64,000 bases of DNA, taken from Thermoleophilia bacterium. Lineage in GTDB: Bacteria; Actinomycetota; Thermoleophilia; Miltoncostaeales; Miltoncostaeaceae. The number at the start of each line of letters is the position of its first letter. Position 1 is the stretch's first letter. A program made the translations under genes and the position numbers. This document shows positions 2,227-54,479 of this stretch, in pieces. The notes beneath the pieces are model-generated. The model had not been told where the DNA came from. It was given only the letters and a program-made list of their open reading frames with translations, and made no database searches. The DNA is taken from positions 1 to 64,000 of the forward strand of contig JAGQUM010000049.1 in the NCBI GenBank assembly GCA_020438485.1, in the 5' to 3' direction.

Positions 2227-2233
2227 GTCCCGA

Positions 2234-4808: not shown

Positions 4809-5816
<1,008 letters not shown>

Positions 5817-5890
5817 CGGGCTCCTCGTCGGTGTGCGGCCGCGCGGCAGCGTACCGGCCCGCGGGTTATGGCCGTGTTGTGGGGCGTCCC

Positions 5891-6453
5891 CTATATCCCC
5901 AGGAGGCGGGCCAGCCGCAGCAGCCCGATGAGGGTCTTTGCGTCGCGGCTGCGCTCGATCACGCCCGGGATGGCCGACAGCGGGACGCGCACCACCTCGA
6001 TGCGCTCGTCCTCGTCGGCCTCCAGCGAGAACGGCTCCAGGTCGGTGGCGATGTACAGGTGGATGAATTCGGTGAGCATCGCGGGCGCCACGTAGAACCC
6101 CCCGAGGTACTCCCAGCGGGCGGCCCGCCGACCCACCTCCTCGGCCAGTTCCCGCCGCGCGGCGGACAGGGGGTCGGTGTCGGTGACATCGAGCTTGCCG
6201 GCGGGGAGCTCGAGCATGACCTCCTCGATGGCCTCACGCGGCTGGCGCACCATCAGCACGTGGTCGTCCTCGATGGGGATCATGGCGACGGCCCCGTCGT
6301 GGTCCAGCACCTCGCGGGTGACCTCGGTGCCGTCATCGCGCGCGTACGCGCTGACCCTCAGCCGGAAGATGCGCCCGTCGTACACGCGCTCAGAGCGGGC
6401 GGGCGGGTCGAGGAAGCCCTCCGCGGCCTGCGACGGCGCCCCGGCGTGGTGCC

Positions 6454-6457
<4 letters not shown>
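5891..6457 (-). CDS. NUDIX hydrolase, ADP-ribose pyrophosphatase-like
   Basis: The protein has 188 residues. The GTG start at 6457 overlaps the stop of the preceding peptidase gene as GTGA, which decides the start. The Nudix box reads GKLDVTDTDPLSAARREL followed by AEEVG. Compared with GX5EX7REUXEEXGU it has one extra residue before the helix, and the first Glu is replaced by Asp/Thr, while the REL-x-EE metal-binding core is intact. The flanking segments (VYDGRIFRLRV, LDHDGAVAMIPI, LLVRQPR-like VLMVRQPRE, and GGFYVAPAMLTE) are typical of the ADP-ribose pyrophosphatase branch. The same order pyrG-NUDIX occurs in mycobacteria. Substrate is inferred from family only. Confidence 0.88.
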
Positions 6458-10977
<4,520 letters not shown>

Positions 10978-10981
<4 letters not shown>

Positions 10982-11880
10982 CCGCGGCCGAACTTCTCCC
11001 GATAGCGCTGGAAGAAGGCGTTCTCGGCGAAGATCCCCAGCCTCACCTCGGCCCCCTGAAGCCCCACCACCACCTGCCGGCCCGGCGCGAGCGCCCCGAC
11101 CTTGACACCGTCCGCGAGGAGGTCACAGCTGCCCCAGATCGCGGAGTTCGTCAGCACCAGCGACTCCTCGGGGGAGATGATCATGGGCCGCGTGTCGAGG
11201 TGGTGCCCGGCCAGGAACGACAGCACGTAGCAGCGCACGCGCCAGCTCACCGTGGGGCCCCCGGCCGCGAGGTTGTAGGCGGTCGAACCCACCGGGGTGG
11301 ACACCACCGCGCCGTCGCAGCGGACGTTGGAGACCCTCACCCCGTCGATGGCGAACGAGAGGTCCGCGATGCGCGATTCCCCGCCCCTCACGAGCGCGAG
11401 GTCGTTGACCGCGTTGACCTGCCCGTCGCTCCAGTCCACGGTGAGCGAGGGAAGGCCGATCACCATGTAGTCGCCCGCCAGGGCCCGCCGGAGACCGTTC
11501 TCGAGGTCGTCTCGCTCGATCGAGCACAGGAACCCGACGCGGCCGAAGTTGACGCCCATGACCGGGGCGCCGGATCCCGCCTCCCGCGCGAGCGCGCGAA
11601 GCATCGAGCCGTCGCCCCCCAGCACGAGGATGAGATCCGTGCCGTCCTTCCGGAGCGTCAGCCCGCTCTCCACCTGGTACTGCCCCAGGCGATCGTGCTT
11701 GAGCACCTCGGTGGGGGGCACGACGATCTGTGCTCCCTGCTCCTCGATGATGCCGAGCACGGAAGACAGGGCACCGCTCGTCGCCTCCGGCGCGCGGTGG
11801 GTGAGGAGGAGCACGCGCTGGACCCGGGTGCCGGACCGATCGATCCGGACGGGGCCGCCGGCGCCTGCCACGTCGGTCAT
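10978..11880 (-). CDS. nadK: NAD kinase
   Basis: This enzyme phosphorylates NAD to NADP in the cytoplasm. The protein has 300 residues from the ATG at 11880; the frame is open for 92 more codons upstream, but that part is unlike the family and a ribosome-site-like GGCGGCGAGAA precedes 11880. The family motif LGGDGSMLRA is at about residues 83-92. Also present are NDLALVRG (NE/D motif) and the Gly-rich region STPVGSTAYNLAAGGP, followed by the beta-sandwich domain. It is coupled to recN. In many actinobacteria tlyA lies directly upstream; here tlyA is about 19 kb away, beyond the exopolysaccharide locus. Confidence 0.96.
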
Positions 11881-12207
11881 CGGGTTCTCGCCGCCCCCCC
11901 GCGGGGGGTCCCGCGAGGCGCGTGGTGGTTGTGCGTCGCCGTGGTCACTGATCCTCTCCGGTCTATGGCAGCAGCATGCCATGACCCGAGGCGCGGCGAA
12001 GGTTCCGGCCCTCGCGATCCGGTGCCCGACGATGCCGGCGGGCCCGGGGGCACGGGTGTCGGACGCGGCGCGGTTCGTCCGCCCCTCGGGCCCTGGCGCT
12101 AACGTGTGTATCCGTCCCGCGCGCCAGGCGGCGGCGCCCTCCACTCCCGTCTCCACCCGCCGTCACACGATGACCCAGGGGGCATCCATCCGCCACGCCG
12201 GCCGCTC
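11881..12207. promoter_or_regulatory. Divergent intergenic region between nadK and the polysaccharide polymerase gene
   Basis: No gene is seen. The region must hold the promoters for the leftward nadK-recN-pyrG unit and for the rightward polymerase gene. At 11965-11982 there is a perfect 6-base inverted repeat, ATGGCA and TGCCAT, around the spacer GCAGCA; it could be an operator or a small hairpin. No good consensus -35/-10 pair was found. The polymerase frame stays open to 12106, so part of this interval would be coding if the upstream GTG were used. Confidence 0.4.
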
Positions 12208-13578
12208 GTGAACCTCCGGACACCGCTTCGCGATACGCCTCTGCCCGTGTGGCTGGCGTGCATCGCCGCCGTCGCCGCGTCCCTCGGGGCCGGTTTCATC
12301 ATCCCCGGCATGCCGAGCGCCGACAACCTGGTGAAGGCGGTGATCGTGGCGGCGGGAGCCGCGGCGGTGATGGTGACGGCCCGCGATCCGCGACGGATAC
12401 TCGTGCTCTGCGCTGTGGCGGCACCGTTCAGTTTCACCGTCACCGTCGCGGGGTTCCCGCTCGATACCGCATCGCTGCTGCTGTTCGTCACCGGGCTCGC
12501 CCTCATCGGTCGCCTCGACGCCGAGCGCGTCCCCGCCGTCGTGGGCATCGGCGCAGCCCTGATGGTCGCCGGGTATGCACTCGCGACGGGCGCGGCGGAC
12601 GACCCCGCGCTCGCCGCCTACGGTGCGGCACGCTGGATCGCCGTGGTGACCGTGTTGATCGCCGGAGCCGGGGTGCTTCGCGAGTCGCCGGCGACCCGGG
12701 TCGCCGTCGCCCGCGCCGTGACCATCGCCACCCCGATCGTCGTGCTGGGCGCACTGGTGCAGGCGGCGGGCGTCACGGTCCCGCCCATCGGCGAACCGTT
12801 CGAGGAGCACCTCGACTCCACGTTCGGCTACTACACGAACTACGCCGGCTTCCTGGCCCTCGGGTCGGTTGTGGCGATCGGCTGCGCCCTGCACGCGGCA
12901 CGCGTCCGCGCGCCCGCATGGGCCGTCTTCTCGGTCATCTCGGCCGTTTCGGGCGTGGTCGGCATCGGGCTGGCGGTGTCGCGCGGAGGCATCCTGGCCC
13001 TCGGCGTCGGCCTCATCGTCCTCCTGCTGCTTCAGGTCAAGCGGCCCGCGGTCGCTCTCGTCGGAGTCGCAGGGGTCGTCGCCGTCCTGCTCGTGGCCTT
13101 CACCCTGACCCCCGGTACCGAGACCGCGGCCCTGAAGGAACGGCTCACCACGCGCCAGACGAGCGACATCGAGCGCCGCCTCATCCAGACGGCAGGCGTC
13201 ACGGCCGCGACGTCCCATCCCCTTGGTCTCGGGTACGGCGGGTTCAGGCGCTACGTGCGTGAGAACGTGCGCGCCACCCACACGCGCGCCGAGGTCGAGC
13301 ACGCGCATCGCACGCCCGTCCAGGTCACGATCGAGGGCGGATGGCTGGCGGGCGCGGGGTTCGTGCTGCTCTTCGCGGGGGCGTTCGCCACCTCGATCCG
13401 GTCGGCGTGGAGGGATGTGGATCCGCTGTCGAGCGGGGCCGCGGAGGCACTCATGGGGTTCGTCGCCCAGGGCTGGAACGACTACCTGCTGGTGGAGACG
13501 GCCTCGCTTCTCTGCGTCGTCGCGGTGCTGCTGATCGCCCTGACGGGCCGCTCCGGCGGGGAGCCTCGCACGGGATAG
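12208..13578 (+). CDS. O-antigen ligase/Wzy-type polysaccharide polymerase, multi-pass membrane protein
   Basis: About ten or more hydrophobic helices run through the 456 residues. A large extracytoplasmic loop near residues 325-380 contains the HAHRTPVQVTIEGG-type segment and precedes helices near the C-terminus, the layout of the Wzy_C/WaaL family. Such proteins polymerise or ligate undecaprenyl-linked oligosaccharide repeats outside the membrane. The frame is open from 12106, but the first 34 residues there are His/Pro/Arg-rich and unlike a membrane protein, so GTG 12208 is preferred; no clear ribosome site marks either. With the Wzx flippase and the Wzz/BY-kinase gene nearby, Wzy-type polymerase is the more likely role. 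The family is highly divergent, so polymerase versus ligase cannot be decided. Confidence 0.8.
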   Translation: MNLRTPLRDTPLPVWLACIAAVAASLGAGFIIPGMPSADNLVKAVIVAAGAAAVMVTARDPRRILVLCAVAAPFSFTVTVAGFPLDTASLLLFVTGLALIGRLDAERVPAVVGIGAALMVAGYALATGAADDPALAAYGAARWIAVVTVLIAGAGVLRESPATRVAVARAVTIATPIVVLGALVQAAGVTVPPIGEPFEEHLDSTFGYYTNYAGFLALGSVVAIGCALHAARVRAPAWAVFSVISAVSGVVGIGLAVSRGGILALGVGLIVLLLLQVKRPAVALVGVAGVVAVLLVAFTLTPGTETAALKERLTTRQTSDIERRLIQTAGVTAATSHPLGLGYGGFRRYVRENVRATHTRAEVEHAHRTPVQVTIEGGWLAGAGFVLLFAGAFATSIRSAWRDVDPLSSGAAEALMGFVAQGWNDYLLVETASLLCVVAVLLIALTGRSGGEPRTG

Positions 13579-13731
13579 GCGGGGAAGGCCGTTCAAGGTT
13601 GATCCCCGGTCGTCCGATCCTTTCGGCACCGGCCGATAACGACGTTTTCGCCGTCCCACGTCAACTCGCGCGGAGCGGCCCTGCCCGCGTGCCACGCGGT
13701 GCTCGCCTCTACGGGCGCCGGAGGTTCCCAC

Positions 13732-15348
13732 ATGTCGAAGAAACGTGAGGCTCTGCGGGGCCTTGCCCTCGTGTGCGTGCTCAGCGGCGCGGGCGGCGCG
13801 GCCGTCTCCCCGGCCACCGCGGCGACGGTGAGTGCCCGGACCTGCGCGACCGCGGGCGCCGCCCCCGCCCGCGATGCGGCCCCCCGTCCCTGCGTGGCGG
13901 GGAAGGCGACGCGCCCCGTCGCCGTCCGCCCGCCCCGGCGGACATCGGGGCTGCGCGCGCGTCTGACCGAGGTGGTGGCGCCACAGCTGTCGATCACCGG
14001 GAGCCGGTTGACGTGGACGCGGGTGTCCGCGACCCCGCGGTACGTGCTCATGACGATCACCGGCTCGCGGAGCAGCACCCGTCGCGTGAGCGGCGAATCG
14101 TACGTCCTGGCGGGCCCTGTGGCCGGGCAGCGGTTCATGATCCGGACCGACCGTCGCAACTCGGCGTGGTCGAATACCGTCACGTACCCCGCGCCCGCAC
14201 CGCCGCCGGCCACCCCGACGCCCCCGATCGTGACCACGCCCCCGCCGACCACACCCCCACCGGCGACGACCACCCCCACCGTACCCACGACGCCCACGAC
14301 GCCCGAACCCCCGCCCCCCACCGCGACGGTGCCCACCACGTCCACCACGTTCCCGGTGCCCTCACCGCCTCCTCCACCTCCCCCCGCGCCGTCGACGACG
14401 ACGCCCGTCGTGGGCCTGGTCGCGGGGTCCGCCATCTCGTGGGAGCTCGGCTTCAGCCGTCCCCTGGGGGCCCGCAACGTGCGCATGGAGTTCGATATCT
14501 CGACCCCCGTGTCCGAGATGTCCCCGATCCTGGCGCAGTACTTCGGGGCGGGAATCCGGCCGCTGCTCCTGGCCGGCTTCCACGGTCGGCGTCCCACCAC
14601 CGCCGAGGCGAAGAACCTGGCCACGTGGGCCGCGGCCTTCGGCCCCGGCGGCTCCGAGCGCCGGGGAAAGGGCTGGGCCGAGTCGACCGCCGTAACGGTG
14701 ATCGAATTCGGTAACGAGTCCAGCCATCGCTCCCAGTACCCGGAGCTGGCGACCGACCCGAACTGGGCGTCGTCCGCGGCGTACTCCGACATCGCCCGCA
14801 ACTACGCGCTTCGCCTGAGGGAGACCCACGACGCGGTGACCACCGCCAACCCCGGTGTCGGCGTGATCGCCGTGGCGGACTCGTACCCGGTGTCCGCGGC
14901 CTGGATGAACGCGATGTTCGCGGCGGCGCCGGATCTCGCATCGCACGTCGACGGCTGGACCATCCACGCGTACGGCCCCTCGTGGCGCGCGAGCGCCGAT
15001 CTCTCGCTGGGCGCAGCCGCGGCCAACGGCGCCCCGGACTCGCTGCCCGTCTACGTCACCGAGGTCGGCGTCGCGTCCGCGGGCGGCCGGTGCATGGCCG
15101 AGAACTCGGGATGGGACCCGTGCATCACCTACGCCGGTGCGGCCACCGCCCTGGACTCGATGCTCGCCGGTCTGCGTAGCCACTACCCCACGCGCCTCGG
15201 GGGCCTGTTCATCTACTCCACGCGGGACCTCTCCCCCACCGGGGCGAGCACCGACAAGGAGCGCTACTTCGGTTCCGTGGCCAGCGATGGCGCCGACAAG
15301 GGGGCGTTCACCGCCCGCGTGAGGGACGAGCTGGCGAAGACCCCATAG
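13732..15348 (+). CDS. Secreted glycoside-hydrolase-like protein with a Pro/Thr linker
   Basis: The protein has 538 residues. ATG 13732 has GGAGG seven bases upstream. A signal peptide (MSKKREALRGLALVCVLSG, cleavage near TAA) leads to a beta-rich module of about 100 residues. A linker of about 60 residues is almost only Pro and Thr (for example TTPPPTTPPP). The last 300 residues look like a TIM barrel of glycosidase clan A: VTVIEFGNES carries a candidate acid/base Glu at a strand end, and LPVYVTEVGVAS the candidate nucleophile Glu; an IHAYGPSW element lies between. It sits in the exopolysaccharide locus, so it may trim or release the polymer; that is inference. The specific family is not recognised. 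A 14-pair terminator hairpin follows the stop. Confidence 0.75.
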   Translation: MSKKREALRGLALVCVLSGAGGAAVSPATAATVSARTCATAGAAPARDAAPRPCVAGKATRPVAVRPPRRTSGLRARLTEVVAPQLSITGSRLTWTRVSATPRYVLMTITGSRSSTRRVSGESYVLAGPVAGQRFMIRTDRRNSAWSNTVTYPAPAPPPATPTPPIVTTPPPTTPPPATTTPTVPTTPTTPEPPPPTATVPTTSTTFPVPSPPPPPPPAPSTTTPVVGLVAGSAISWELGFSRPLGARNVRMEFDISTPVSEMSPILAQYFGAGIRPLLLAGFHGRRPTTAEAKNLATWAAAFGPGGSERRGKGWAESTAVTVIEFGNESSHRSQYPELATDPNWASSAAYSDIARNYALRLRETHDAVTTANPGVGVIAVADSYPVSAAWMNAMFAAAPDLASHVDGWTIHAYGPSWRASADLSLGAAAANGAPDSLPVYVTEVGVASAGGRCMAENSGWDPCITYAGAATALDSMLAGLRSHYPTRLGGLFIYSTRDLSPTGASTDKERYFGSVASDGADKGAFTARVRDELAKTP

Positions 15349-15356
15349 GAGCCCCC

Positions 15357-15391
15357 GTGATCGTGGCGCCGTGGGAGGGCGCCACGATTAC
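15357..15391. terminator. Bidirectional terminator hairpin between convergent genes
   Basis: The arms at 15357-15370 and 15378-15391 pair over 14 bases (ATCGTGGCGCC core, one G-U pair) around a seven-base loop. The hairpin follows the glycosidase-like gene and overlaps the stop codon of the deacetylase-like gene on the other strand. No long T-run follows on either side, which is common in high-GC genomes. Confidence 0.7.
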
Positions 15392-16401
15392 CGGGGTCCG
15401 CCTTCAGCCGCCAGCACCTCCGCGAGGAACGCGTCCCAGGATGCCGCGACGCCGGCGAGCTCGTCGCAGAGTGCCCGGAGGTCGGTGAGCCCGGCGTCCA
15501 TCTCCCAGCCCCAGTGCAGCACGAGGGGCACCCAGCCGCCGACGCGCCGGCCCACCAGATCCCTGACGACGGCCAGGAGATCCCGGGCCCTGCCGTAGAG
15601 CGGCGGATAACACGGCATGTACACGGCGTCACCGAGCCACGTGGGTGTGGGGTGCCAGCCCATGAGACGAACGCTCTCCGGACCCCCGGTGATCACCGGG
15701 AACCTGCGGGCGAGCTGTGCGTACTGTCCCGGATCGAACCGGTTGAACGGGGCCACGAACGCCCGTGGGACCACGCCGATCTCGCCGAGCACGCCGAGGC
15801 CGGTGTCCAGCATCTCTGAGAGCTCCCCCTCGGAGAGCCCGCAAAGCTCGGAGTGGCGGCGTGGGTCGGCGCTGACGGTCCGGTGCGTCAGGCCGTGCAG
15901 CCCCACGCTGACACCCTCGTCCTGCACGCGACGCAGCATCCCGGCGGAGCGCTCGTCCATGGGTACCCACGCCGTTTCCTCCGGATCGAGGTAGTCAACG
16001 CTCAGCCGGGGAAGAGCCGCCACCAGGTAGGGCACCCCCGCCGCGAGCATCACCTCGTGGAAGCGGGCGAACGCCCCGGCGCCGTAGCGATCGGGGAGGT
16101 CCGCCGCCCGGGCGTGCGGAAACTCGTCCACGCGGATCAGGAAGCGGGGCGCGTCCTCGGCGGCGTCGCCCAGGACGGCACGTCGCGCCGCTGTGGCGGG
16201 CGCGAGGCTCCCGGACTCGTACGACAGCCGTCCGGCCTTCGCCAGCACGGCGTGGGCGAGACGAACGGCACGGCGTGGGATCCGGCGGCGTCGTGCCGCC
16301 GTCAGCAGCGCCGGGCAGCCCCGTCCGTCGACGTCCGACAGGACTCGTGCGCGGTCGGCGCCGAGCAGCAGCGCGGCGTTACGGAGTTCATCCGAGTTCA
16401 T
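15388..16401 (-). CDS. Polysaccharide-deacetylase-like protein (DUF2334-type)
   Basis: The protein has 337 residues from ATG 16401, chosen for GGAGG seven bases upstream; an earlier in-frame start at 16428 is less likely. Motifs fit the NodB/DUF2334 barrel: RFLIRVDEFPHA (metal-site Asp region, about 85-97), VSVGLHGLTHRT (the His-x-x-x-His pair, about 166-177) and PRAFVAPFNRFD (the Arg/Pro motif). The C-terminal part has VPLVLHWGWEMD. There is no signal peptide, so it appears cytoplasmic, unlike most exported deacetylases. It lies in the exopolysaccharide locus and could act on a nucleotide- or lipid-linked sugar. The activity is inferred from motifs. Confidence 0.75.
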   Translation of the reverse strand: MNSDELRNAALLLGADRARVLSDVDGRGCPALLTAARRRRIPRRAVRLAHAVLAKAGRLSYESGSLAPATAARRAVLGDAAEDAPRFLIRVDEFPHARAADLPDRYGAGAFARFHEVMLAAGVPYLVAALPRLSVDYLDPEETAWVPMDERSAGMLRRVQDEGVSVGLHGLTHRTVSADPRRHSELCGLSEGELSEMLDTGLGVLGEIGVVPRAFVAPFNRFDPGQYAQLARRFPVITGGPESVRLMGWHPTPTWLGDAVYMPCYPPLYGRARDLLAVVRDLVGRRVGGWVPLVLHWGWEMDAGLTDLRALCDELAGVAASWDAFLAEVLAAEGGPR

Positions 16402-16455
16402 CCCGCCACCTCCCGCGGCGATTCGCATATCCCACGCCCGTATCGCACCGGGCCG

Positions 16456-17043
16456 TCACCGGCGAAAGGCCCGCCATGGTCGCGCGCGACCGGCGGGTGG
16501 CGGTTCCGGCAGCCCACGGATGCGGCAGCCCACGCCAGACCCCATCAGCCACAGGGCCCGGACGTGCACGCGCTGGCGGGCCCGGCGCGCTCCCGCCGGG
16601 TCGGGGTAGACGCCCGCGCCCGCCGCGGACGCGTCCGCCGCACGCAGTGCAAACGGTGCAACCCACCGCGCGGCGTCGCGGACGCTTCTCTCCGTAACCC
16701 CGCCGGCGGGCACCGCGTCGTGGAACGCGCCCAGCAGCACCGCGCGCGACCGGCGGGCGCCCGCGAGGGTCACGGCCGCCGCCAGGTGCTCCAGCTCGAA
16801 ACCCACGACGAGGTCGCACCCGCGCAGGTCCGCCTCGCTGATCGCCCGGCTTCGACAACCCCCGACGTCCCGCCCCAGCAGTGCGAGTTCAGCCGTGACG
16901 GCGTCCAGGGGTGGGCATCCCGACGGCCCCCGCGACGCGTACGACGTCACGTCCGCCCCCCATCCGTGCCACGCATTGCGCAGGGCGTCCGCGACCACGA
17001 CGCTGCGAAACCGGTTGGCGGTGCACACAACGGCGACCCTCAC
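16456..17043 (-). CDS. Low-molecular-weight protein-tyrosine-phosphatase-like protein
   Basis: The protein has 195 residues from GTG 17043. The P-loop VVCTANRFRS at residues 5-14 fits CX5R(S/T), and the late VYPDPAG supplies the Asp-Pro acid motif, so the catalytic residues of the LMW-PTP fold are present although the rest is divergent. In exopolysaccharide loci such phosphatases (Wzb type) dephosphorylate the BY-kinase that controls chain length; here that kinase is encoded about 1.3 kb away on the other strand. The C-terminal 40 residues are Arg/Pro-rich and may be disordered. The gene lies 22 bases after the glycosyltransferase gene. Another LMW-PTP occurs at 59587-60129. Confidence 0.75.
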   Translation of the reverse strand: MRVAVVCTANRFRSVVVADALRNAWHGWGADVTSYASRGPSGCPPLDAVTAELALLGRDVGGCRSRAISEADLRGCDLVVGFELEHLAAAVTLAGARRSRAVLLGAFHDAVPAGGVTERSVRDAARWVAPFALRAADASAAGAGVYPDPAGARRARQRVHVRALWLMGSGVGCRIRGLPEPPPAGRARPWRAFRR

Positions 17044-45750: not shown

Positions 45751-46506
45751 TCAGATCTTGCGGATCTCCAGAAGCCGCAACTTGTAGGTGACCCTGCTGG
45801 TCTGGTTGACCAGCGTCAGGGACGCACCCTCCTTCAGCGTGACGGTGTCACTGCCGTCGGGCAGCAGGCCGCCGTTGAGCTTCAGGACGACCGATCCCAG
45901 CGAGATGCGGTCGACGGTGAACTGCTGGGTCTCGGGCGGGATCGCGTCGCCGACGCGGGCCACGACCGGCTCGCCGCCGATGTCGAAGTCGGCCTCGTAC
46001 CCCTGCACCGCGGGTGCCTGCGACGGGGCGGGCGTGGGCGCGGTGGCCGTCGGGCCGGTGGGCGTCGTCGCCGTGCCGGTCGGCACCGGCGTGACGCCCA
46101 CCGGCACGCCGGTCGACGGCTGCGTCACCACGGGCGGGTTCGGCGTAGACCCCGGCGACGTGGCGGTGCCGGCGCCGGAGCCCTCGCCCGCGGAGGGGGC
46201 GTTGCCGGGGTCGGACGCCTCGTCCTTCACGATCGGCACGAACACGTCGCCGGGCGTGCCCATCTCGTCGTAGCCGGGCAGGCTCGACGCGTTGGCGCCG
46301 GGCTCGGGTACGGCCGGGGATCCGTACAGCTGGTCGGTCGGGGCCGGCGCCGCGCCCGCCACGGGGGCGGCGACGGCGGCGGTCGCGTTGCCGTCGCCGC
46401 TGCCGACGTCACCGCCCCCGTCCCCACCCCCGCCGCAACCGGCGAGGACGATGACAAGGGCGGCCGCGGCCGCGGCGGAACGCGCGGCGGTCGGGCGCAG
46501 CCTCAC
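45751..46506 (-). CDS. Lipoprotein in the PilP position of the pilus cluster
   Basis: The protein has 251 residues. A signal peptide ends in the lipobox VLAGC, with a Gly/Asp-rich stretch after the Cys. A low-complexity Pro/Thr/Gly region fills residues 85-165. The last 85 residues form a compact beta-like domain (YEADFDIGGEPVVARVGDAI ... VDRISLGSVVLKLNGG ... TVTLKEG). In order and build (lipobox, disordered linker, small beta domain, directly after pilO) it matches PilP, which links PilNO to the secretin in Gram-negative bacteria. Sequence identity is not evident, and a secretin is not expected in a monoderm. GTG 46506 overlaps the pilO stop. Confidence 0.7.
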   Translation of the reverse strand: MRLRPTAARSAAAAAALVIVLAGCGGGGDGGGDVGSGDGNATAAVAAPVAGAAPAPTDQLYGSPAVPEPGANASSLPGYDEMGTPGDVFVPIVKDEASDPGNAPSAGEGSGAGTATSPGSTPNPPVVTQPSTGVPVGVTPVPTGTATTPTGPTATAPTPAPSQAPAVQGYEADFDIGGEPVVARVGDAIPPETQQFTVDRISLGSVVLKLNGGLLPDGSDTVTLKEGASLTLVNQTSRVTYKLRLLEIRKI

Positions 46507-47207
46507 GGGGTACCTCCGGCGGAGTTGTTGGTGGCGTTGATGGCGTTGATGCTCTTCTGCTCCGCGGCCTTCGGGGACATCGGAGCGGGCGCCGAGGGCG
46601 CGGCGACGGGGGTCGCGGTGCCGCCGTCCGTGAACACGAGGACCTTCAGCTCGGTCTCGACCGTGCCAGCGGGTGCCGGGTCCTCGCTGTCACCCGTGGT
46701 CAGGTCCATGTCGACGGCCTTGGTGGCGAACAGCCGACCCTCGACCCGGGGGGCCGACCGCTCGTCCAGCGTCACCTGGCGGTGCAGGCGGAACATGAAG
46801 TCGTCCACATCGAAGTAGCGGCCCTTGACCACCACCGAGAGCTCGGTGGCGGCGATGTTCGGATACACGGTCGTGGCGCTGGTGCGCACGCCCATCAGCG
46901 TCACGTTGGACTGCTTGGCGAGGCTCTGCAGCTGCACGATCGCGGTGTCGACCTGCGGCCGCGCGGGCACGGCCTTCGACATGGCGAACGCGTCGATCAT
47001 GCGGTCCTGGGCGCCTGTCTGCTGCTTGGTCAGCCGCGTGAGCTGATCCTGCAGGTTGGCGTTGTCGGACTGGACCATGGACAGCTGGTCGCGCTTGGCC
47101 TGGGCGTCGGCCTTGGCGGGCTTGACGACGAACCAGTAGAGGCCGCCGATCGCCGCGACGGCGGCGAGCACGGACAGCAGCAGCTTGTCGCGCTTGTTCA
47201 GGGTCAC
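46503..47207 (-). CDS. pilO: Type IV pilus assembly protein PilO
   Basis: The protein has 234 residues from GTG 47207, overlapping the pilN stop. A short cytoplasmic tail (LNKRDKLLLSVL) and one membrane helix are followed by a coiled coil (QAKRDQLSMVQSDNANLQDQ) and a ferredoxin-like periplasmic domain: VQLQSLAKQSNVTLMGVR, LSVVVKGRYFDVDDFMFRLH. This layout is that of PilO, which pairs with PilN in the inner-membrane alignment complex. A Pro/Ala/Ser-rich tail follows. Assignment rests on domain layout and the pilM-pilN-pilO order. Confidence 0.88.
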   Translation of the reverse strand: MTLNKRDKLLLSVLAAVAAIGGLYWFVVKPAKADAQAKRDQLSMVQSDNANLQDQLTRLTKQQTGAQDRMIDAFAMSKAVPARPQVDTAIVQLQSLAKQSNVTLMGVRTSATTVYPNIAATELSVVVKGRYFDVDDFMFRLHRQVTLDERSAPRVEGRLFATKAVDMDLTTGDSEDPAPAGTVETELKVLVFTDGGTATPVAAPSAPAPMSPKAAEQKSINAINATNNSAGGTP

Positions 47208-47929
47208 GGAACCATCCCCCCCGGGGCGGTCGAGCCGGCGGGCGAGCCCTGCGCGGCGGCGGTGAGGTCGGCCGAGGCGGTCAGCGACGCGCGGTCCTGC
47301 GCGCGCTGGTCGACCGGGATCTCGACGATGAAGCTGACCACCCAGCGGTTCCCGCGCTTGACGACGTCGGACGACGTGACGCGCGGGGTGCCGAGGCCCG
47401 GGACGGCCCCGAGGCGGGCGATCATGTGGGCGACGTCGTCCTGGGTGTAGGCGAGTCCCTCCAGGTGGAGGCCCTGGACGGCCTGCGCCGTCTGGGGTTG
47501 CGCTGTCGCGCCGGGCGTGGTGGGCGTCGGCGCGGCGGCGACCTCGGTCGGCGACGTCGCCGTGACCTTCACCAACGACACGCGCTTGCGCGGCATCACG
47601 GTGACGGAATCGCGGATGAGGCGCTCCCAGTTGATGCGAGCGGCCGTCAGCGACACCAGGACGCCGCGGCGGGCCTCCTGCTTGTTGGCCTGCTGGTCGG
47701 CGGCAAGCAGCTGCTGGAGCTGCGCGTTCATGACCTGGTTGTCGGCCTGCGCAGCCGCCAGCTCCTCGCCGGCGGCCGAGGCGTCCTGGCGGGCGGTGAA
47801 GCCCATGTAGCCGACGGCCGCGAGAAGGGCCACGGCGCCGAGGACGGCGGCGGACTGCTTGCGGTTGCCGCCGGAAAGCGAGAGGCCCTGGCGGCCCGTC
47901 TTGGCGGGAAGGAGGTTGATGGCCTGCAT
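47204..47929 (-). CDS. pilN: Type IV pilus assembly protein PilN
   Basis: The protein has 241 residues. The N-terminus MQAINLLPAKTGRQG carries the INLLP motif that binds PilM, followed by one membrane helix (VLGAVALLAAVGYMGF), a coiled coil rich in Ala/Gln and a PilN domain (INWERLIRDSVTVMPRKRV, LHLEGLAYTQDDVAHMIARL). A Pro/Thr-rich loop interrupts the domain near residues 125-145. It lies three bases after pilM and overlaps pilO. Confidence 0.9.
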   Translation of the reverse strand: MQAINLLPAKTGRQGLSLSGGNRKQSAAVLGAVALLAAVGYMGFTARQDASAAGEELAAAQADNQVMNAQLQQLLAADQQANKQEARRGVLVSLTAARINWERLIRDSVTVMPRKRVSLVKVTATSPTEVAAAPTPTTPGATAQPQTAQAVQGLHLEGLAYTQDDVAHMIARLGAVPGLGTPRVTSSDVVKRGNRWVVSFIVEIPVDQRAQDRASLTASADLTAAAQGSPAGSTAPGGMVP

Positions 47930-47932
47930 GGC

Positions 47933-49000
47933 TTAGCGCTCCCCGTCCAGGGCGAGCCCCAGCGCCACGGCGCTGCGGGCCGCGATGTCGCCGGCGACAC
48001 CGCCGTCGTGGTCGAGCTGCCCCAGGGGGTCGCCCACCTCGACGCGCATCCCGATGCCCTGTTGCAGGTACCGGTCGATGCCGGTGCACAGGGACGTCCC
48101 GCCGGTCACGATCAGGCGGTCGATGGGCCGCGCGAACGGCTGCGACCTGTAGTAGTCGAGGCAGCGGGCCACCTCGCGCACCAGGGGCCGGGCGCCCAGC
48201 GCAAGCGCATGGCGGACCTCGGCGACGGTGTCGGAGTCCCACCCCTCCAGCGGCTGCCCCAGCAGGCCGCAGGCCTGTTTCACGGCCTCGGCCTCCTCGC
48301 TCGACAGGCCGGTGCGGTCGGCGACGGCGGTGGTGAGGTGGGACCCGCCGAAGTTCACCAGGCGGGTGAAGTGGCATTTGCGGTCGACCGCGACGATGAC
48401 GTTCGTGACCTCGGCACCCACGTGCACGACGGCCTGGGCGGGGGTGTCGGTGGAGCCCTCGTCGACGACCGATGGGGCCGGCAGCAGGGCACGCAGCAGC
48501 GCGAACGCCTCGAGGTCGATGCCGACCGGCTGCAGGCCTGCGGCCCGCACCACGGACACGAGCGTGTCGATCATGTCGCGGTAGGCCGCGACGACGACCA
48601 GCCGCTCCCGCTCGCCGTCGTCGCCGGAGTAGCGCATGACGGGCTGGTAGTCGACGACGCTCTCGTCGACGGGGATCGGGATGTGCTCGCCGGCCTCGAA
48701 CTGCACGGCGGCGCGGAGCTCCGCCGGGTTCTCCAGGACGGGCAGCTCGATCGTGCGCACCAGGACGCGCTGGTTGGCGACGCCGAGGCGCACCTTCTTG
48801 CCGGAGAACCGGTGGGTCTTCCAGAACCGCTTGAGCTCGGCGGCGAGTTCGCTGGGCTGGCGGATCTCCCCGTCCTGCAGGAGCCCGGGGGCGATCGGCT
48901 CCACCGCGGCCTTGGTGAGGCTGACGCGGTCGCGTGAGCTCTTCACCTCGACGCCGGCGATGGCGCTCGATCCCATATCCAGTGCAACGACTGTACTCAT
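47933..49000 (-). CDS. pilM: Type IV pilus assembly ATPase-like protein PilM
   Basis: The protein has 355 residues with the actin-like fold of PilM/FtsA. The first phosphate loop is VVALDMGSSAIAGVEV, the second VVHVGAEVTNVIVAVD, and the adenosine motif LIVTGGTSLCTGIDRYL. PilM sits on the cytoplasmic side and holds the PilN N-terminus. It is the first gene of the pilMNO-lipoprotein run; a 73-base gap separates it from the prepilin peptidase gene upstream. Confidence 0.94.
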   Translation of the reverse strand: MSTVVALDMGSSAIAGVEVKSSRDRVSLTKAAVEPIAPGLLQDGEIRQPSELAAELKRFWKTHRFSGKKVRLGVANQRVLVRTIELPVLENPAELRAAVQFEAGEHIPIPVDESVVDYQPVMRYSGDDGERERLVVVAAYRDMIDTLVSVVRAAGLQPVGIDLEAFALLRALLPAPSVVDEGSTDTPAQAVVHVGAEVTNVIVAVDRKCHFTRLVNFGGSHLTTAVADRTGLSSEEAEAVKQACGLLGQPLEGWDSDTVAEVRHALALGARPLVREVARCLDYYRSQPFARPIDRLIVTGGTSLCTGIDRYLQQGIGMRVEVGDPLGQLDHDGGVAGDIAARSAVALGLALDGER

Positions 49001-49073: not shown

Positions 49074-49853
49074 TCAGCCGAGGCGGTCGGCGTACCAGCC
49101 GACCATCGCGGGCCCCCACCACAGGGCGACGAGCGCCCCGACGGCGAGGAACGGGCCGAACGGGACCGCCATCTTGCGGGCGGCGGACCCGTGCCGGAGG
49201 AGCATCGCGACGCCCAGCAGGCTGCCGGTGAGGAACGCGATACCCAGCGCGGGGATCACGGCGGTGCCGAGCACGGCGCCCATGAGGAGCGCCAGCTTGA
49301 CGTCGCCGAGGCCCATGCCCCCGGGGTAGAACAGCCAGAGGAGGAAGAGGAAGCCGGCGGCGCCCGCGGCGGCCACGACGGGCTGCCACCAGCGGCCGGG
49401 GTCCGCCGCGATCACCAGCGCCAGCGCGACGGCCGCGGCCGGGAGCACGATGACGTCGGGGATGAGGCGGTGCTGCAGGTCGATCACCACGATCGGAACC
49501 AGCGCGACGGCCATCAGGGCCGCGGCCAGACCGCTCGCGGTGGGGCCGAACGTGGCGACGGGGATCGCCGCCAGCGCGGCGGTCGCCAGCTCGATGGCCG
49601 GGTACCGCGCCGAGACGCGGGCGCCACAGCCGCGGCAGCGGCCTCGCTGGATCGCCCACGACAGCACGGGCACCAGCTCGTGCGGGCCCAGCACGTGGCC
49701 GCAGCCCGTGCAGTGGGACCGCGGGGTCGACAGCGACTCCTCGCGGGGCCAGCGCCACGCCATGACCGTGAAGAACGATCCCAGCGCGAGGCCCAGGAGG
49801 GCGGCCATGACCACCCAGTACCACAGGGGCGCGATTGTCAGGAGATCCGGCAT
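49074..49853 (-). CDS. pilD: Prepilin peptidase (type IV leader peptidase)
   Basis: The protein has 259 residues and about eight membrane helices. The cytoplasmic loop has two CxxC pairs (HCTGCGHVLGP and CRGCGARVS), the zinc site of bifunctional PilD/PulO. The aspartic-protease residues are in VIDLQHRLIPDV and GGMGLGDVKLALL (the GxGD motif). The N-methylase region LGSFFTVMAWRWPR is present. It would cleave and methylate both pilins in the cluster. It begins six bases after the fibronectin-like gene. Confidence 0.95.
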   Translation of the reverse strand: MPDLLTIAPLWYWVVMAALLGLALGSFFTVMAWRWPREESLSTPRSHCTGCGHVLGPHELVPVLSWAIQRGRCRGCGARVSARYPAIELATAALAAIPVATFGPTASGLAAALMAVALVPIVVIDLQHRLIPDVIVLPAAAVALALVIAADPGRWWQPVVAAAGAAGFLFLLWLFYPGGMGLGDVKLALLMGAVLGTAVIPALGIAFLTGSLLGVAMLLRHGSAARKMAVPFGPFLAVGALVALWWGPAMVGWYADRLG

Positions 49854-49859
49854 CAGCGG

Positions 49860-52580
49860 CTACCGACGCACCACGAACTTGTCGTACACGAACAGCTTGC
49901 GGGCCCGACTGGGCGTCGCCTCGAGGGTGCGCCGGGCGTCGACCGGCACGAACAGGCGCACCCGCTGGTTGCCGACGGCGAGCTTCGGGCGGAGCGTGAC
50001 CTTGAAACGGCGCGCGCCCCGGATGGTCTTCACGACGCGCCAGCCGGAGCCGTCGCGCACCTGGATCTGCACCGTGCGCCTGGGGAACACCGTCCCCTTC
50101 GCGGTGATCCTGCCGGTGCGCACCATGCGGCCACGACCCAGCGCGAAGCTGACGCGCGGGGTGGCGCGGACGACGAACGGCGCGACGCCCTCGGGGTGGT
50201 CGGCGGTGGCGACCCAGCGCAGCCGCCACGACGCGCTGCGGCGCACCGGCAGCCGGAACGCGAACCGCCCGTCCGCCCGTCCGGTGACCGTGCCGTACCT
50301 CGTGTAGTCGCTCTTCGGCCACACCCGCTGCTCGAGCACCAGCCTGGGCTTCCGGACGTTGGCGCCGTTGTGCTTCAGGCGCCCGGCGATGACCAGCTTG
50401 GTGCCGTACGCGACCTTGTTGGGGATGGCGTTCAGGTTGAACTGCGGGGGACGCACGCTGACGAACGTGTGCGCCGGGCTCCACGCGCTGTAGTCGTCGT
50501 CGCCACAGAACTGGGTGCGCACGCGCCACCACCACTTGCCCGGGTGCGACACGATGGCGCCGTTGGGCACGAACGCGGTCTGCGGGGTGAGGACGGCGCC
50601 GTCGGCGGGAGCCGCCTTGGGGACCGGTGCCTCGCCGCCGGGTGTGTAGCCGCCGCCCGTCTGCAGCGCGGGCACCTGGGCGGTGTCGGACTTCTGGAAC
50701 GCCTCGTTGTCGGCGGTCTGCACCTGGTACGCGCAGCCGGCGATCTGCGGGTTCCACTTCATCAGCGGGGAGCCCACCACGACGGCGCCGTCGTTGGGGG
50801 CCGTCACGGTGACGCGGGGCGGGTTGAGGATGAACTCCTTGGCGGAGCTCCACGTCTGCCCCTTGCCGTCGGCGTCGACGGCGCGCACACGCCAGAACCA
50901 GCGACCGGATGGCAGGCGCTTGCCCTTGTCCTTGATCCACGAGGTGCCCAGCGACCACGACGTGATCGTCTCAGAGCGCGACTCGTTGAACTCCTGGTCG
51001 CGGCTCAGCTGCACCTGGTACCGGGCGGCACCGGGCACGTCGGCCCACGTGAACACGGGCGGCTCGGTGACGACGCCCGACGCCGCGCTGCCCAGGGTCA
51101 CGGATGTCTGCTTGCGGTACTTGCTCACCGGCACGCGGCTCTCGTCCTCGAGCCACTGAGGATTGGTGGGGTCGTAACCGGACCCCCACACCACCCGCCA
51201 GAAGTACCCCTCGCGGACCTGGTTGTCGGGCAGCGGGGTGCGCGGCGTGAACGACGTCGAGCGCGTGTGCTCGCTGAGGACGATGTTGTTGAACTGCTCG
51301 TCGGTGGCGATGTCGAGCCGGTAGATGTTCGCGTTCGTGACGGGCGTCCAGCTCATCGTCGGGCTGAGCGCCGACGTGCTGTCCGCCACCTGCGTCAGCA
51401 CCGGGACGGAGGTCCTCTCCGGGGCACCGGGAACGACCCACTCGAACGAGCGGGGCTTGCTCCAGGTGCCGTACACGTTGGAGACGATCGGCCGCACCCG
51501 CCAGAAGTACGTGCCCGGGGCCATGCCCTTGCCCGCGAGCTCCTTCTGGGTCGGCGTGAGCGCCGTGTTACCCGTGAGCGCGTCGATGTTGAGGGCCGTC
51601 CCCTGCCACACGTGACGCACCGACGAGATCTGGACCTCGTACTTCTCGGCGCCCGACACCGGCTCCCACGACAGGTTCATCGAGTGCGTGGTGGCCCCGT
51701 CCGCCGGGCTGGTCACGTTCACGGACACCCACGCCTTCGTGAACGCGCCCATCGACGTCCACGGGCCCGGGTTCTTGTTGGCGTCGAAGGCCCGCACCCG
51801 CCACATGTAGCCGTCGTCCGGCAGCACGCCGGACACGCCCGCGGTCATGTTCGTGACCGGGTAGTTCTCCGACGAGAACCCGCGCTCAGCGAACTGGTCG
51901 CCCGCGGAGATCTCGGTGCTGTAGTACGCCGCCCCGGGGGTGTGGTCCCAGCGCATGTACGGCGTGATGCGCACCAGGCTTGTGGCCGGGGAGTCGAGGG
52001 CGGGCGAGGCCGATAGGACGCCGCCCGTGATCTGTCCCGGCCACTCCTTGGCGAACGTCGCAACGGAGCTCACCCGTCCGTTCGTCCCGGCCTTGTCCGT
52101 GGCGGTCACGCGCCACCAGTACTGGCCGTCGGGAAGTAGCAGCTCGGGGGCCACCTGGATCTGGTCGGTGACGCCGGTCCACACGATGGCCGTCATGCCC
52201 GGGACGCTCGAGACCTCCACCTTGTACGTGACGGCGCCGGGGACGGGCGACCACTCCAGCACGATGGGCTCGGCCGGGTACGTGAACGGGTCGGCGGACT
52301 GGTTCGGGAACAGGCCCAGCGGCTCGCTGGACGGGCGGTCGGCCTTGAACGGCGACGCGGCGTTCGTCGTGCCGGGCACGCGCGGCACCAGCGTGGCGTC
52401 CTCCGGCGTGCCCGCGGCGGGAGTCATCGTCTGGGCGACGGAGGGGCCCGCGATACCGAGGGTGAGCGCGGCGGCGGCCGCCGCCAGGCCGGCGGGGGCG
52501 ATCGTGCGGCGGTGCGTGGCGGACGTTCCGAGCGCGCGACGCAGCTGCGACGCGGCGCGGGACCCATCGAGGTTGGGCAC
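49860..52580 (-). CDS. Large secreted fibronectin type III-like repeat protein in the pilus cluster
   Basis: The protein has 906 residues from GTG 52580, with AAGGA upstream; GTG 52655 would add 25 residues. A signal peptide ends near GIAGPSVAQT. Six repeats follow, each opening with a (P)xxxW.P..GA..Y.V.(I/V)S pattern (EWSPVPGAVTYKVEVSS, SWEPVSGAEKYEVQISS, TWADVPGAARYQVQLSR) and closing with a Trp-rich strand (PDGQYWWRVTATD, PGTYFWRVRPI, PSGRWFWRVRAVD). Two more beta domains end the protein (GTKLVIAGRLKHNG, GRITAKGTVFPRR). There is no pilin leader, LPxTG or lipobox. It may be a surface adhesin or pilus-associated protein. Lying between pilin and prepilin peptidase genes, it is probably linked to the pilus, but this is inference. 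Confidence 0.8.
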   Translation of the reverse strand: MPNLDGSRAASQLRRALGTSATHRRTIAPAGLAAAAAALTLGIAGPSVAQTMTPAAGTPEDATLVPRVPGTTNAASPFKADRPSSEPLGLFPNQSADPFTYPAEPIVLEWSPVPGAVTYKVEVSSVPGMTAIVWTGVTDQIQVAPELLLPDGQYWWRVTATDKAGTNGRVSSVATFAKEWPGQITGGVLSASPALDSPATSLVRITPYMRWDHTPGAAYYSTEISAGDQFAERGFSSENYPVTNMTAGVSGVLPDDGYMWRVRAFDANKNPGPWTSMGAFTKAWVSVNVTSPADGATTHSMNLSWEPVSGAEKYEVQISSVRHVWQGTALNIDALTGNTALTPTQKELAGKGMAPGTYFWRVRPIVSNVYGTWSKPRSFEWVVPGAPERTSVPVLTQVADSTSALSPTMSWTPVTNANIYRLDIATDEQFNNIVLSEHTRSTSFTPRTPLPDNQVREGYFWRVVWGSGYDPTNPQWLEDESRVPVSKYRKQTSVTLGSAASGVVTEPPVFTWADVPGAARYQVQLSRDQEFNESRSETITSWSLGTSWIKDKGKRLPSGRWFWRVRAVDADGKGQTWSSAKEFILNPPRVTVTAPNDGAVVVGSPLMKWNPQIAGCAYQVQTADNEAFQKSDTAQVPALQTGGGYTPGGEAPVPKAAPADGAVLTPQTAFVPNGAIVSHPGKWWWRVRTQFCGDDDYSAWSPAHTFVSVRPPQFNLNAIPNKVAYGTKLVIAGRLKHNGANVRKPRLVLEQRVWPKSDYTRYGTVTGRADGRFAFRLPVRRSASWRLRWVATADHPEGVAPFVVRATPRVSFALGRGRMVRTGRITAKGTVFPRRTVQIQVRDGSGWRVVKTIRGARRFKVTLRPKLAVGNQRVRLFVPVDARRTLEATPSRARKLFVYDKFVVRR

Positions 52581-52718
52581 TGAGGCGCTTTCCTTGCGTT
52601 CGGGAGAAACGTTCGTGCGGGGAGGCACGACCGAGGGATCCGTCCCCTCCGTCACATCCTCTATCGGACGTTCGGGCCGGTTATGTGAGCGCCGACGCCG
52701 CCGATTCCCCCGCCGCGT

Positions 52719-53162
52719 TCACCAGCGCCCGGGGGTTCCGCCGTCGTGGCAGCGGTCGGCCGGGGCGCACGTGCGCGCGACCCCGGACGCCGACCGGATG
52801 ATGGCCCACGTGGTCCCCGCGGCGGTCTCGGTGGACAGCGTGTAGCCGTCCGCGGCGGCCGTGAACGCCACCTGCCCGTCCTGCGCCCGGTTCTCCGTGG
52901 CGTCGAACGCGATGCCCGGCTCGATGGCACGCAGGCGCGCCACGTCGATGGCGGCGTAGTCGCGGGTGTCGGCGTAGGCCGACTCCACCGTGGAGGCCGC
53001 GCTGCGGACCAGGGACTTGGCGGCCGCCTCCTGCCCACGGGATCGCTGTCCCATGAACACGGGGATGGCGATGGCGGCCAGCAGACCGAGCATCGCGAGG
53101 GCAACCAGCAGCTCCACGAGGCTGAAGCCGCGCTGGAGGCGGCGGTGGGGCGCGATCTGCAC
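52719..53162 (-). CDS. Type IV pilin-like protein (second pilin)
   Basis: The protein has 147 residues from GTG 53162, with AGGA eight bases upstream. The leader MQIAPHRRLQRG is followed by FSLVELLVALAMLGLLAAIA, with Glu at mature position 5 and cleavage after Gly. The globular part has YADTRDYAAIDVARLRAIEPG, parallel to the first pilin, and a C-terminal pair of cysteines (RTCAPADRC). The tail DGGTPGRW differs. It appears to be a paralogue of the upstream pilin, possibly a minor subunit. It lies downstream of a terminator hairpin, so its level may be lower. Confidence 0.92.
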   Translation of the reverse strand: MQIAPHRRLQRGFSLVELLVALAMLGLLAAIAIPVFMGQRSRGQEAAAKSLVRSAASTVESAYADTRDYAAIDVARLRAIEPGIAFDATENRAQDGQVAFTAAADGYTLSTETAAGTTWAIIRSASGVARTCAPADRCHDGGTPGRW

Positions 53163-53254
53163 GGGCGGCTTCCTGTCGGGGGCGCGGCCGGACGGCCGTC
53201 CCCCCTGGCATCGGCAGCGCGGCCCCCGATCTGGATGGCCGGGCCCGGAAACGA

Positions 53255-53282
53255 CGAAGGGCCCGCCGAGGCGGGCCCTTCG
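53255..53282 (-). terminator. Perfect 13-pair hairpin after the first pilin gene
   Basis: CGAAGGGCCCGCC (53255-53267) and GGCGGGCCCTTCG (53270-53282) pair perfectly. On the minus strand it lies 36 bases after the pilin stop and is followed by TCGTTTCC. It probably terminates or limits transcription between the two pilin genes, giving more of the first pilin. Confidence 0.7.
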
Positions 53283-53318
53283 CGGTACCGCGTCCCGGGA
53301 GGCCCGGGGACGGCGGGT

Positions 53319-53741
53319 CTACCAGGTGCAGGTCGCGCTGGTGGAGCAGGTGCGCTTCACGCCGGTCGCGTCCTTCGTGATGCTGAAGGTCGTGCCGCTC
53401 TTGCTGGTGGACTTGATGGTGTACCCAGCGGCGGTGCCGGCGTAGTTGACCTCGTCGTTCGCGGCGGCGAACGTAGCACCGAACTTGATGCTCGGCTCGA
53501 TCGCGTTCAGCTTGGTGGCGTCGATGGCCGTGTAGTCCTGCGTGTCGGCGTAGGAGGCCTCCACCGAAGAGGCGGCGTTGCGCACGAGGGACTTGGCGGC
53601 GGCGTCGTTGGCCTTGTTGCGCTGGCCGAGGAACGTCGGGATGGCGATGGCGGCCAGGAGGCCGATGATGATCACCACGACGAGGAGCTCGATGAGGGTG
53701 AAGCCCTCCTGGCCGCGGCGGTTACGCAGCGAGTTGATCAA
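53319..53741 (-). CDS. Type IV pilin, probable major subunit
   Basis: The protein has 140 residues from TTG 53741, with GGAAGGG seven bases upstream; no ATG or GTG fits the frame. Leader LINSLRNRRGQEG is followed by FTLIELLVVVIIIGLLAAIA with Glu at mature position 5. The globular part has YADTQDYTAIDATKLNAIEPS and ends with RTCSTSATCTW, a likely disulfide loop. It is shorter and more Thr/Ser/Lys-rich than the neighbouring pilin and heads the cluster, hence probably the major pilin. The 177 bases to rnhA hold an AT-rich patch (CTTAACAG and AATTAAT near 53859-53883), probably its promoter region. Confidence 0.94.
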   Translation of the reverse strand: MINSLRNRRGQEGFTLIELLVVVIIIGLLAAIAIPTFLGQRNKANDAAAKSLVRNAASSVEASYADTQDYTAIDATKLNAIEPSIKFGATFAAANDEVNYAGTAAGYTIKSTSKSGTTFSITKDATGVKRTCSTSATCTW

Positions 53742-53918
53742 TTGGAATCCCTTCCATGGAGAGAGCGAGAAGAAACCGGGAGACACCGGGTTCGCCGGGA
53801 GCTGCGTACGCACTTGGGCTCCGCGGGCACCCCTTTCATCGCCCCCGCCCGGCCGTTCCTTAACAGTCCGCACGCAATTAATCCGCCCGGCGCCGCCGAG
53901 GCCGCTATCCTCGCCCCC

Positions 53919-54479
53919 GTGCCCAGCCCCGAGAACGCCCTGGTCTCCCCCGTCACCGTGGTCACGGACGGTGCGTGCTCGGCCAACGGGCGCGACGCGT
54001 CGCGGGGCGGCTGGGCCGCCATCCTCACCGACGCGGACGGCAACGAGCGCGTCCTGACCGGCGGCGAGGCGCCGTCCACCAACAACCGCATGGAGCTGAC
54101 GGCCGCACTGGAGGGCCTGGCCGCCGCGCCCGAGGGCGGCGACGTCAGGCTGGTGACCGACTCCACGTACCTGGCGCACGCCATCAGCAAGGGCTGGCTG
54201 GACGGCTGGCAGCGCCGCGGCTGGAAGACCGCGTCCAAGGACCCCGTGGCCAACCAGGACCTGTGGCGGCGGATGATCGCCGAGCTGGCCCGCCACCGTC
54301 GCGTCACGACCGAGGTGGTGAAGGGCCACGCGGGCCACGACGCGAACGAGCGGGCCGACCGGCTGGCCCAGGAGGCCGCCACGCGCGACTGGCCGGCCGC
54401 GCCCCGCGACGACGCCCCGCCCGCCGCCGCGCCCACTGCCCCGCCGTCCCGGGACGACGGCCAGCTGGGCTTCTTCTAG
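53919..54479 (+). CDS. rnhA: Ribonuclease HI
   Basis: The protein has 186 residues from GTG 53919. Catalytic residues are in order: Asp in VTVVTDGACSANG, Glu in NNRMELTAALEGL, Asp in VRLVTDSTYLAHAI and Asp in GHDANERADRLA. The handle region (GWQRRGWKTASKDPVANQDL) is present. A Pro/Ala/Asp tail (DDAPPAAAPTAPPSRDDGQ) extends it beyond the usual 150 residues. It removes RNA from RNA-DNA hybrids. The stop shares CTAG with the convergent metW stop. Confidence 0.96.
   Translation: MPSPENALVSPVTVVTDGACSANGRDASRGGWAAILTDADGNERVLTGGEAPSTNNRMELTAALEGLAAAPEGGDVRLVTDSTYLAHAISKGWLDGWQRRGWKTASKDPVANQDLWRRMIAELARHRRVTTEVVKGHAGHDANERADRLAQEAATRDWPAAPRDDAPPAAAPTAPPSRDDGQLGFF

Follow-up and report, generated by a model that had tools for sequence, protein, structure and literature searches.

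Introduction

To our knowledge, no mechanism has been established by which type IV pili pass through the thick wall of a monoderm bacterium without a secretin. In diderms, type IVa pili are anchored to the wall by TsaP and LysM factors. The described system closest to the locus analysed here is the monoderm type IVa machinery of Streptococcus sanguinis and Clostridium (PMC6916266), which our locus and its genome resemble in having a pilin, PilD, PilM, PilN/PilO-like proteins, ATPases, a platform protein and minor-pilin-like genes; no secretin was found here. Unlike our locus, the monoderm sets given in the accessible part of that source include no long multi-FN3 exported protein. In the same part, this 2019 review states that outer-membrane components are missing in monoderms, names no wall component, and gives the pili studied in Actinobacteria as type IVc (Tad). 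Pil-type clusters have already been reported in Rubrobacter (PMC8325347, in its accessible part).

Here we describe a gene for a long, probably exported protein with FN3-like repeats (the FN3 gene) that lies inside a type IVa pilus cluster of Miltoncostaeaceae (Thermoleophilia, Actinomycetota; family f1). No description of such a gene was found in the literature that we searched, which included the accessible parts of PMC6916266, PMC8325347, PMC13059738 and PMC3244431, most subscription papers being outside its scope.

Results

A predicted exported multi-FN3 protein within a pilus cluster

The window, which is the whole stretch of 64 000 nucleotides that was analysed, has 73% G+C and derives from a 2.58-Mb draft genome in 91 contigs that is 95% complete. 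Its minus strand carries, in this order, two pilin genes, the FN3 gene, pilD, pilM, pilN, pilO and a lipoprotein gene. The features are as follows.

53319..53741, minus strand: first (probably major) pilin, TTG start (N_methyl, E 1.4e-8)
53239..53298, no strand: terminator-like inverted repeat 3' of the first pilin gene (core 53255-53282; no T run)
52719..53162, minus strand: second pilin (N_methyl, E 1.7e-8)
49860..52580, minus strand: multi-FN3 exported protein (906 aa), whose gene probably heads the assembly operon
52431..52580, minus strand: its N-terminal leader, residues 1-50, with a signal-peptide-like hydrophobic stretch (sequence inspected by eye)
50457..52286, minus strand: its six Trp-rich FN3-like repeats, residues 99-708 (motif positions and structure model)
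49863..50456, minus strand: its basic tandem Ig-like C-terminal module, residues 709-906 (structure model, K+R versus D+E, profile comparison)
49074..49853, minus strand: PilD prepilin peptidase (A24_N_bact, E 5e-30; Peptidase_A24, E 1.5e-13)
47933..49000, minus strand: PilM (PilM_2, E 1.2e-49)
47204..47929, minus strand: PilN, from its position and a PF05137 match (E 4e-4) below the cut-off (20.7 versus 22.8)
46503..47207, minus strand: PilO, from its position, a T2SSM match (E 7e-9) above the cut-off and a PilO match (E 6e-4) below it (20.5 versus 22)
45751..46506, minus strand: conserved lipoprotein after PilO (lipobox by eye; no family match)

The open reading frame of the FN3 gene (49860-52655) encodes 931 aa when counted from its first GTG. 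The GTG at 52580, with AAGGAAAG just upstream of it, is the better start. Relatives with 43-59% identity, whose frames are open, show that the gene is coding. A preliminary description of this DNA had placed a Trp-rich protein of about 900 residues and six repeats between a pilin and the prepilin peptidase, and the open reading frame, the WRV motifs and the Pfam matches of the pilin and PilD bear this out. The leader is followed by a linker modelled with low confidence, by the six repeats and by some 200 residues of a different kind. Tryptophan accounts for 33 of the 906 residues. The repeats follow the pattern WxxVxGAxxY ... YxWRV, with WRV at residues 156, 260, 360, 461, 563 and 685; a seventh WRV, at residue 847, falls inside the C-terminal module.

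Structure prediction, which the preliminary description had proposed, gave a mean pLDDT of 79.3 and a pTM of 0.67 for the mature protein (13 sequences), and a pLDDT of 88.9 and a pTM of 0.77 for the C-terminal part modelled alone (12 sequences). The predicted fold is nearly all beta and FN3/Ig-like. The term ‘FN3-like’, used from the outset, thus stands for a likeness of motif and fold; in the Pfam scan the protein did not match fn3 (PF00041), and its matches were to Ig_Rha78A_N (E 2e-9) and DUF4962 (E 7e-9). The same scan gave no match to N_methyl (the prepilin leader), to LysM or to PilY1 (PF05567). A second PilY1 search was also matchless, but its control matched nowhere. The sequence has no sortase signal (LPXTG, hydrophobic stretch and basic tail) and ends in VYDKFVVRR.

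Searches of solved structures with the protein family returned weak matches only, the best of them heparinase-like (E 0.0099). Foldseek and VIA-align returned generic Ig chains (complement, alpha-2-macroglobulin, antibodies) and no functional lead; Vibrio RbmA stood at rank 27 of one of these searches. Kinship with phage tails was considered on account of PHROGs tail-protein matches (9.8e-9 and 0.0076), which we judged to reflect common Ig/FN3 folds. We also rejected a mobile origin of the gene, as no close plasmid homologue was found; two records had 26-27% identity over about one-third of the query.

Other pilus components in the genome

A pilin with the N-methylation motif, the prepilin peptidase and PilM are all present in the cluster by Pfam scan. 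Elsewhere in the genome, contigs C89 and C80 encode T2SSE ATPases and a T2SSF platform protein, the extension and retraction ATPases being assigned by eye among the T2SSE proteins. Contig C66 holds a minor-pilin-like group, and its presence led us to rule out that the FN3 protein replaces the minor pilins. By eye, this group is a trio near a groEL-like gene (1971-5678 of the locus). Two of its proteins are long: one of 528 aa has a weak carboxypeptidase-regulatory-like domain, and one of 502 aa has no Pfam match.

The preliminary description had also regarded the organism as lacking a secretin, and none (PF00263) was found in the 95%-complete draft, in a search whose control matched in 6 of 14 genomes. 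The lipoprotein at 45751-46506 occupies the slot after PilO that PilP holds in diderms. We rejected its identification as PilP for want of a PF04351 match, which is a weak ground as the control matched in 1 of 14 genomes. It has no convincing solved relative (best E 0.067). This lipoprotein could link the pilus machine to the wall protein.

The FN3 gene is closely spaced with pilD

Six bases (49854-49859) separate the FN3 gene from pilD, which starts at 49853; the preliminary description had given the same gap. Across 13 family genomes (the window and 12 others) this gap ranges from -4 to 17 nt. The pilin-to-FN3 gap is 138 nt in the window and 146-615 nt in 11 other family genomes, values that rest on uncurated starts, some called late, and may therefore be overestimates. 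A hairpin with a 13-bp core and no T run lies 3' of the first pilin gene. Given the tight spacing with pilD, the wide gap to the pilin and this hairpin, the FN3 gene more likely begins an assembly operon than closes the pilin unit. No promoter or terminator was predicted when 52400-54100 was scanned. Genes beyond the window were called with our own codon-score script, on genomes that are mostly drafts.

Work on Rubrobacter suggested a WhiG-type promoter (PMC8325347, in its accessible part). The window contains no exact match to this consensus. Eight sites with three mismatches occur in it, one of them upstream of the first pilin (53836-53862); shuffled sequences contained 3.65 such sites on average, and eight were reached in 3 of 100 shuffles.

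Within the family, all orthologues found lie in pilus clusters

A search of 61 genomes with the FN3 protein gave matches in 17. Fifteen of these, the genome of the window and 14 more at 43-59% identity, are among the 37 Miltoncostaeaceae genomes searched and hold orthologues; the two from other families gave weak, repeat-only matches. PilM was found in 41 of the 61 genomes, 20 of them Miltoncostaeaceae. Every one of the 15 family carriers has PilM and has the FN3 gene within its pilus cluster. A pilin is upstream in 14 of the 15 (in G019 the contig ends) and pilD is downstream in 14 (in G003 the contig ends inside the gene); in G013 the FN3 gene was seen as a called fragment only. Co-occurrence with pilus genes, which the preliminary description had proposed to check, is thus found throughout the carriers, and the fixed gene order strongly supports an association with the pilus.

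Five family genomes have PilM and no FN3 gene. G007 and G016, with a PilM identity of 58% in the search, keep the order pilin-pilD-pilM; in G008, G011 and G017 the PilM identity is 35-38%, and these group with family f3 in the PilM tree. In genus g7 genomes that lack the gene, extra pilins occupy its slot. Five pilin genes were called before pilD in G016 (3908-8722 of its locus). A second contig of G025 encodes a second, divergent PilM (29% identity) with no recognised pilus cluster around it. Weak matches to the FN3 profile occur in family genomes G005, G008, G011 and G029 (best E 1.8e-6 to 8.6e-5). Both the FN3 gene and PilM are absent from 17 family genomes. A Fisher test of co-occurrence gave p = 3.1e-6, a value that is inflated because 15 of these 17 genomes belong to one genus, so that the events are not independent.

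The six repeats are in register in 13 aligned family sequences. In this the protein differs from repeat-variable adhesins.

The divergence of the FN3 protein correlated with that of PilN (r 0.93), the lipoprotein (0.90), PilO (0.87), PilD (0.83) and PilM (0.77), in 10 genomes whose pairs are not independent. The housekeeping control AroC, at r 0.86, matched most pilus proteins. After the AroC trend was removed, the values were 0.69 for PilN, 0.61 for the lipoprotein, 0.44 for PilO, 0.24 for PilD and 0.15 for PilM. We take this as no more than a hint that the FN3 protein co-diverges with pilus proteins.

The same gene order occurs in a second family

Standard pilus operons had been said not to carry such a gene, and other PilM loci support this. 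We fetched 24 of them from the class Thermoleophilia and called PilM in 23; none of these 23 has an FN3-protein match among the six genes flanking PilM on each side, or among as many of them as its contig includes, since some contigs end early. In several of them the slot of the FN3 gene is taken by genes whose starts look prepilin-like by eye, with one match to PilX_N. A class-wide profile search matched the FN3 profile in at least 118 of 299 genomes, many matches being to repeats only or to the module only, and found PilM in at least 187. Among the matches listed, three genomes of family f12 have a remote homologue of 25-27% identity beside a pilin. Two of them (G198 and G238) show the order pilin-FN3-pilD-pilM, and in G248 the pilin and FN3 genes are on one contig and pilD and pilM on another. 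The repeat number and order are about the same in the f12 homologues despite the low identity, and the FN3-to-pilD gap is 41 and 89 nt (uncurated starts). Thermoleophilia isolate RYN_237, the contig of which equals that of G198 in length, has a remote homologue (27% identity) between a pilin and pilD-pilM, whose alignment extends to the very C-terminus of the FN3 protein. In the PilM tree the FN3 carriers require two changes; a single clade of FN3 carriers and g7 was not rejected (p-AU 0.252).

Wall enzymes carry modules homologous to the C-terminal one

The preliminary description had found no anchor in the protein. This is probably wrong, as the protein has a C-terminal module in common with wall enzymes. 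That first reading had missed the module, a separate basic part in the last 200 or so residues. It has 46 K+R versus 9 D+E and carries a net charge of +13 to +50 in all 15 full-length homologues measured (13 from the family, 2 from f12), with a net negative remainder. The charge is not specific to it, since six module-less remote FN3 proteins likewise have a basic C-terminus (+11 to +31).

The module profile matched 51 of 1381 distinct proteins searched: 29 copies or fragments from Miltoncostaeaceae, three f12 entries (two of them from one genome), 18 other proteins and one weak match, at locus L144. The 18 others originate from 17 loci; 19 of the loci with a C-terminal profile match had been chosen from among the class-wide matches, and two of the 19 gave nothing. 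Five of the 18 contain an L,D-transpeptidase domain (four by Pfam YkuD, one by motif) and two contain DPBB_1, a lytic transglycosylase domain. No wall enzyme domain was found in the remaining 11, of which four were scanned with Pfam and seven by motif only. When the profile of the pilus module was compared with that of the modules from the seven wall enzymes, 185 columns aligned (probability 99.5, E 4.6e-23). By these comparisons the module is homologous to those on L,D-transpeptidases and lytic transglycosylases. Because it is common to peptidoglycan enzymes, it plausibly serves as a non-covalent wall anchor. The homology is new here, and the plausible anchor is the main correction to the earlier view.

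Remote multi-FN3 proteins

Remote multi-repeat proteins share 24-36% identity with the FN3 protein in the best segment. At 64 of 66 remote loci, tblastn at 1e-3, a search of limited sensitivity, found no pilus gene. Apart from L169, and except for the weak match at L144, the remote loci gave no C-terminal-module match at 1e-3. None of the orthologues found lies away from pilus genes; it is these remote proteins that are mostly found elsewhere.

Among 22 distinct loci, five have a module-less remote multi-FN3 protein next to Flp/Tad pilus genes: L150 (G245; 9998-16877), L211 (G215), L124, L216 (G073) and L121. In G215 and G245 the remote gene is directly before the Flp pilin. The proteins at these loci are 837-981 aa if complete; one was called at 1183, and two are cut by contig ends. 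Tad, RcpC, T2SSE and T2SSF domains at L150 are above the Pfam cut-offs and its Flp match (E 5e-5) is below; the Tad assignments were made by blastp to L150. Two classes of type IV filament may each have recruited FN3 rods in Thermoleophilia.

Discussion

We have considered a model alongside the observed gene order, tight spacing, conserved repeats and module homology, in a genome in which no secretin gene was found. Our leading reading, which we hold tentatively and at somewhat less than even confidence, is that the FN3 protein is a dedicated wall-resident component of the type IVa pilus machine of a single-membrane bacterium, possibly a stalk or collar where the pilus emerges. The protein would be the first product of a co-transcribed assembly operon (FN3-pilD-pilM-pilN-pilO-lipoprotein) and would be exported by Sec. 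The basic C-terminal Ig pair may then hold it in the cell wall. The six-repeat rod, at about 20-25 nm by domain size, would form this stalk or collar around the exit point, within the wall or immediately above it and near the PilM/N/O complex, and may guide the filament, or steady it, as it extends and retracts. Such a machine part is favoured only moderately by the unvarying number of repeats and by the spacing with pilD. Several results count against it: the gene-less clusters of G007 and G016, the 11 of 18 module carriers without a wall enzyme domain, the basic C-termini elsewhere, the AroC control at r 0.86, and the low partial values for PilM and PilD.

The preliminary description had offered an adhesin or a wall guide. 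Wall residence is favoured by the module, and a tip adhesin is less so. A wall-held adhesin would look alike in sequence to a machine part and is a close rival, if on balance rather unlikely: it would be made together with the pilus and project its repeats outwards, binding surfaces, polysaccharide or cells after the pilus pulls the cell close, with no role in assembly. The multi-FN3/Ig architecture is what such an adhesin would have, the best Pfam match is to an accessory domain that takes its name from a rhamnosidase, and G007 and G016 keep the pilus cluster without the gene. Repeat number and order, fixed in 13 family sequences and nearly unchanged in the homologues with 25-27% identity, speak against this adhesin, as does the tight spacing with pilD. 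We consider it improbable that the protein is instead an adhesin bound to the tip or shaft of the pilus, carried out by minor pilins and functionally like PilY1. The absence of N_methyl and PilY1 matches in the Pfam scan argues against this, the module points to the wall, and the gene is spaced with pilD and not with the pilins it adjoins; on the other side are that adjacency, the prepilin-like starts in the same slot in several other families, and the minor-pilin-like genes elsewhere in the genome. Least probable of all, in our judgement, is a generic exported structural protein that hitch-hikes in the operon with no pilus-specific function. Remote multi-FN3 proteins are indeed common and mostly away from type IVa genes; yet no orthologue was found outside the cluster, and the gene order is common to two PilM lineages.

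How would a wall-resident FN3 protein compare with known components? Like the TsaP and LysM factors, it would tie the pilus port to peptidoglycan, but it has no LysM match and no secretin was found for it to anchor. Like PilY1-type tip adhesins, it is a large exported protein encoded near pilus genes, but it lacks a PF05567 match and is predicted to contain FN3/Ig-like domains only. The remote multi-FN3 proteins of Thermoleophilia are similar in length and repeats (24-31% identity), but they have no module match at 1e-3 and either serve a different class of pilus or are encoded at a distance from any recognised pilus gene.

If the protein is part of the machine, its significance may be broader. 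It is conceivable, though we think it unlikely, that Miltoncostaeaceae and f12 have a type IVa machine with its own wall-resident exit structure, in which the six-repeat rod and the basic Ig-pair anchor, perhaps with the lipoprotein as a link to PilN/PilO, stand in for the secretin and wall anchor of two-membrane bacteria. A part of this kind is not known from described pilus machines. Our results add to the pil-type clusters of Rubrobacter one from Thermoleophilia with an extra part. A wall-linked protein that heads the assembly operon would be a concrete candidate for how the pilus passes the wall, and it offers a module that can be tested.
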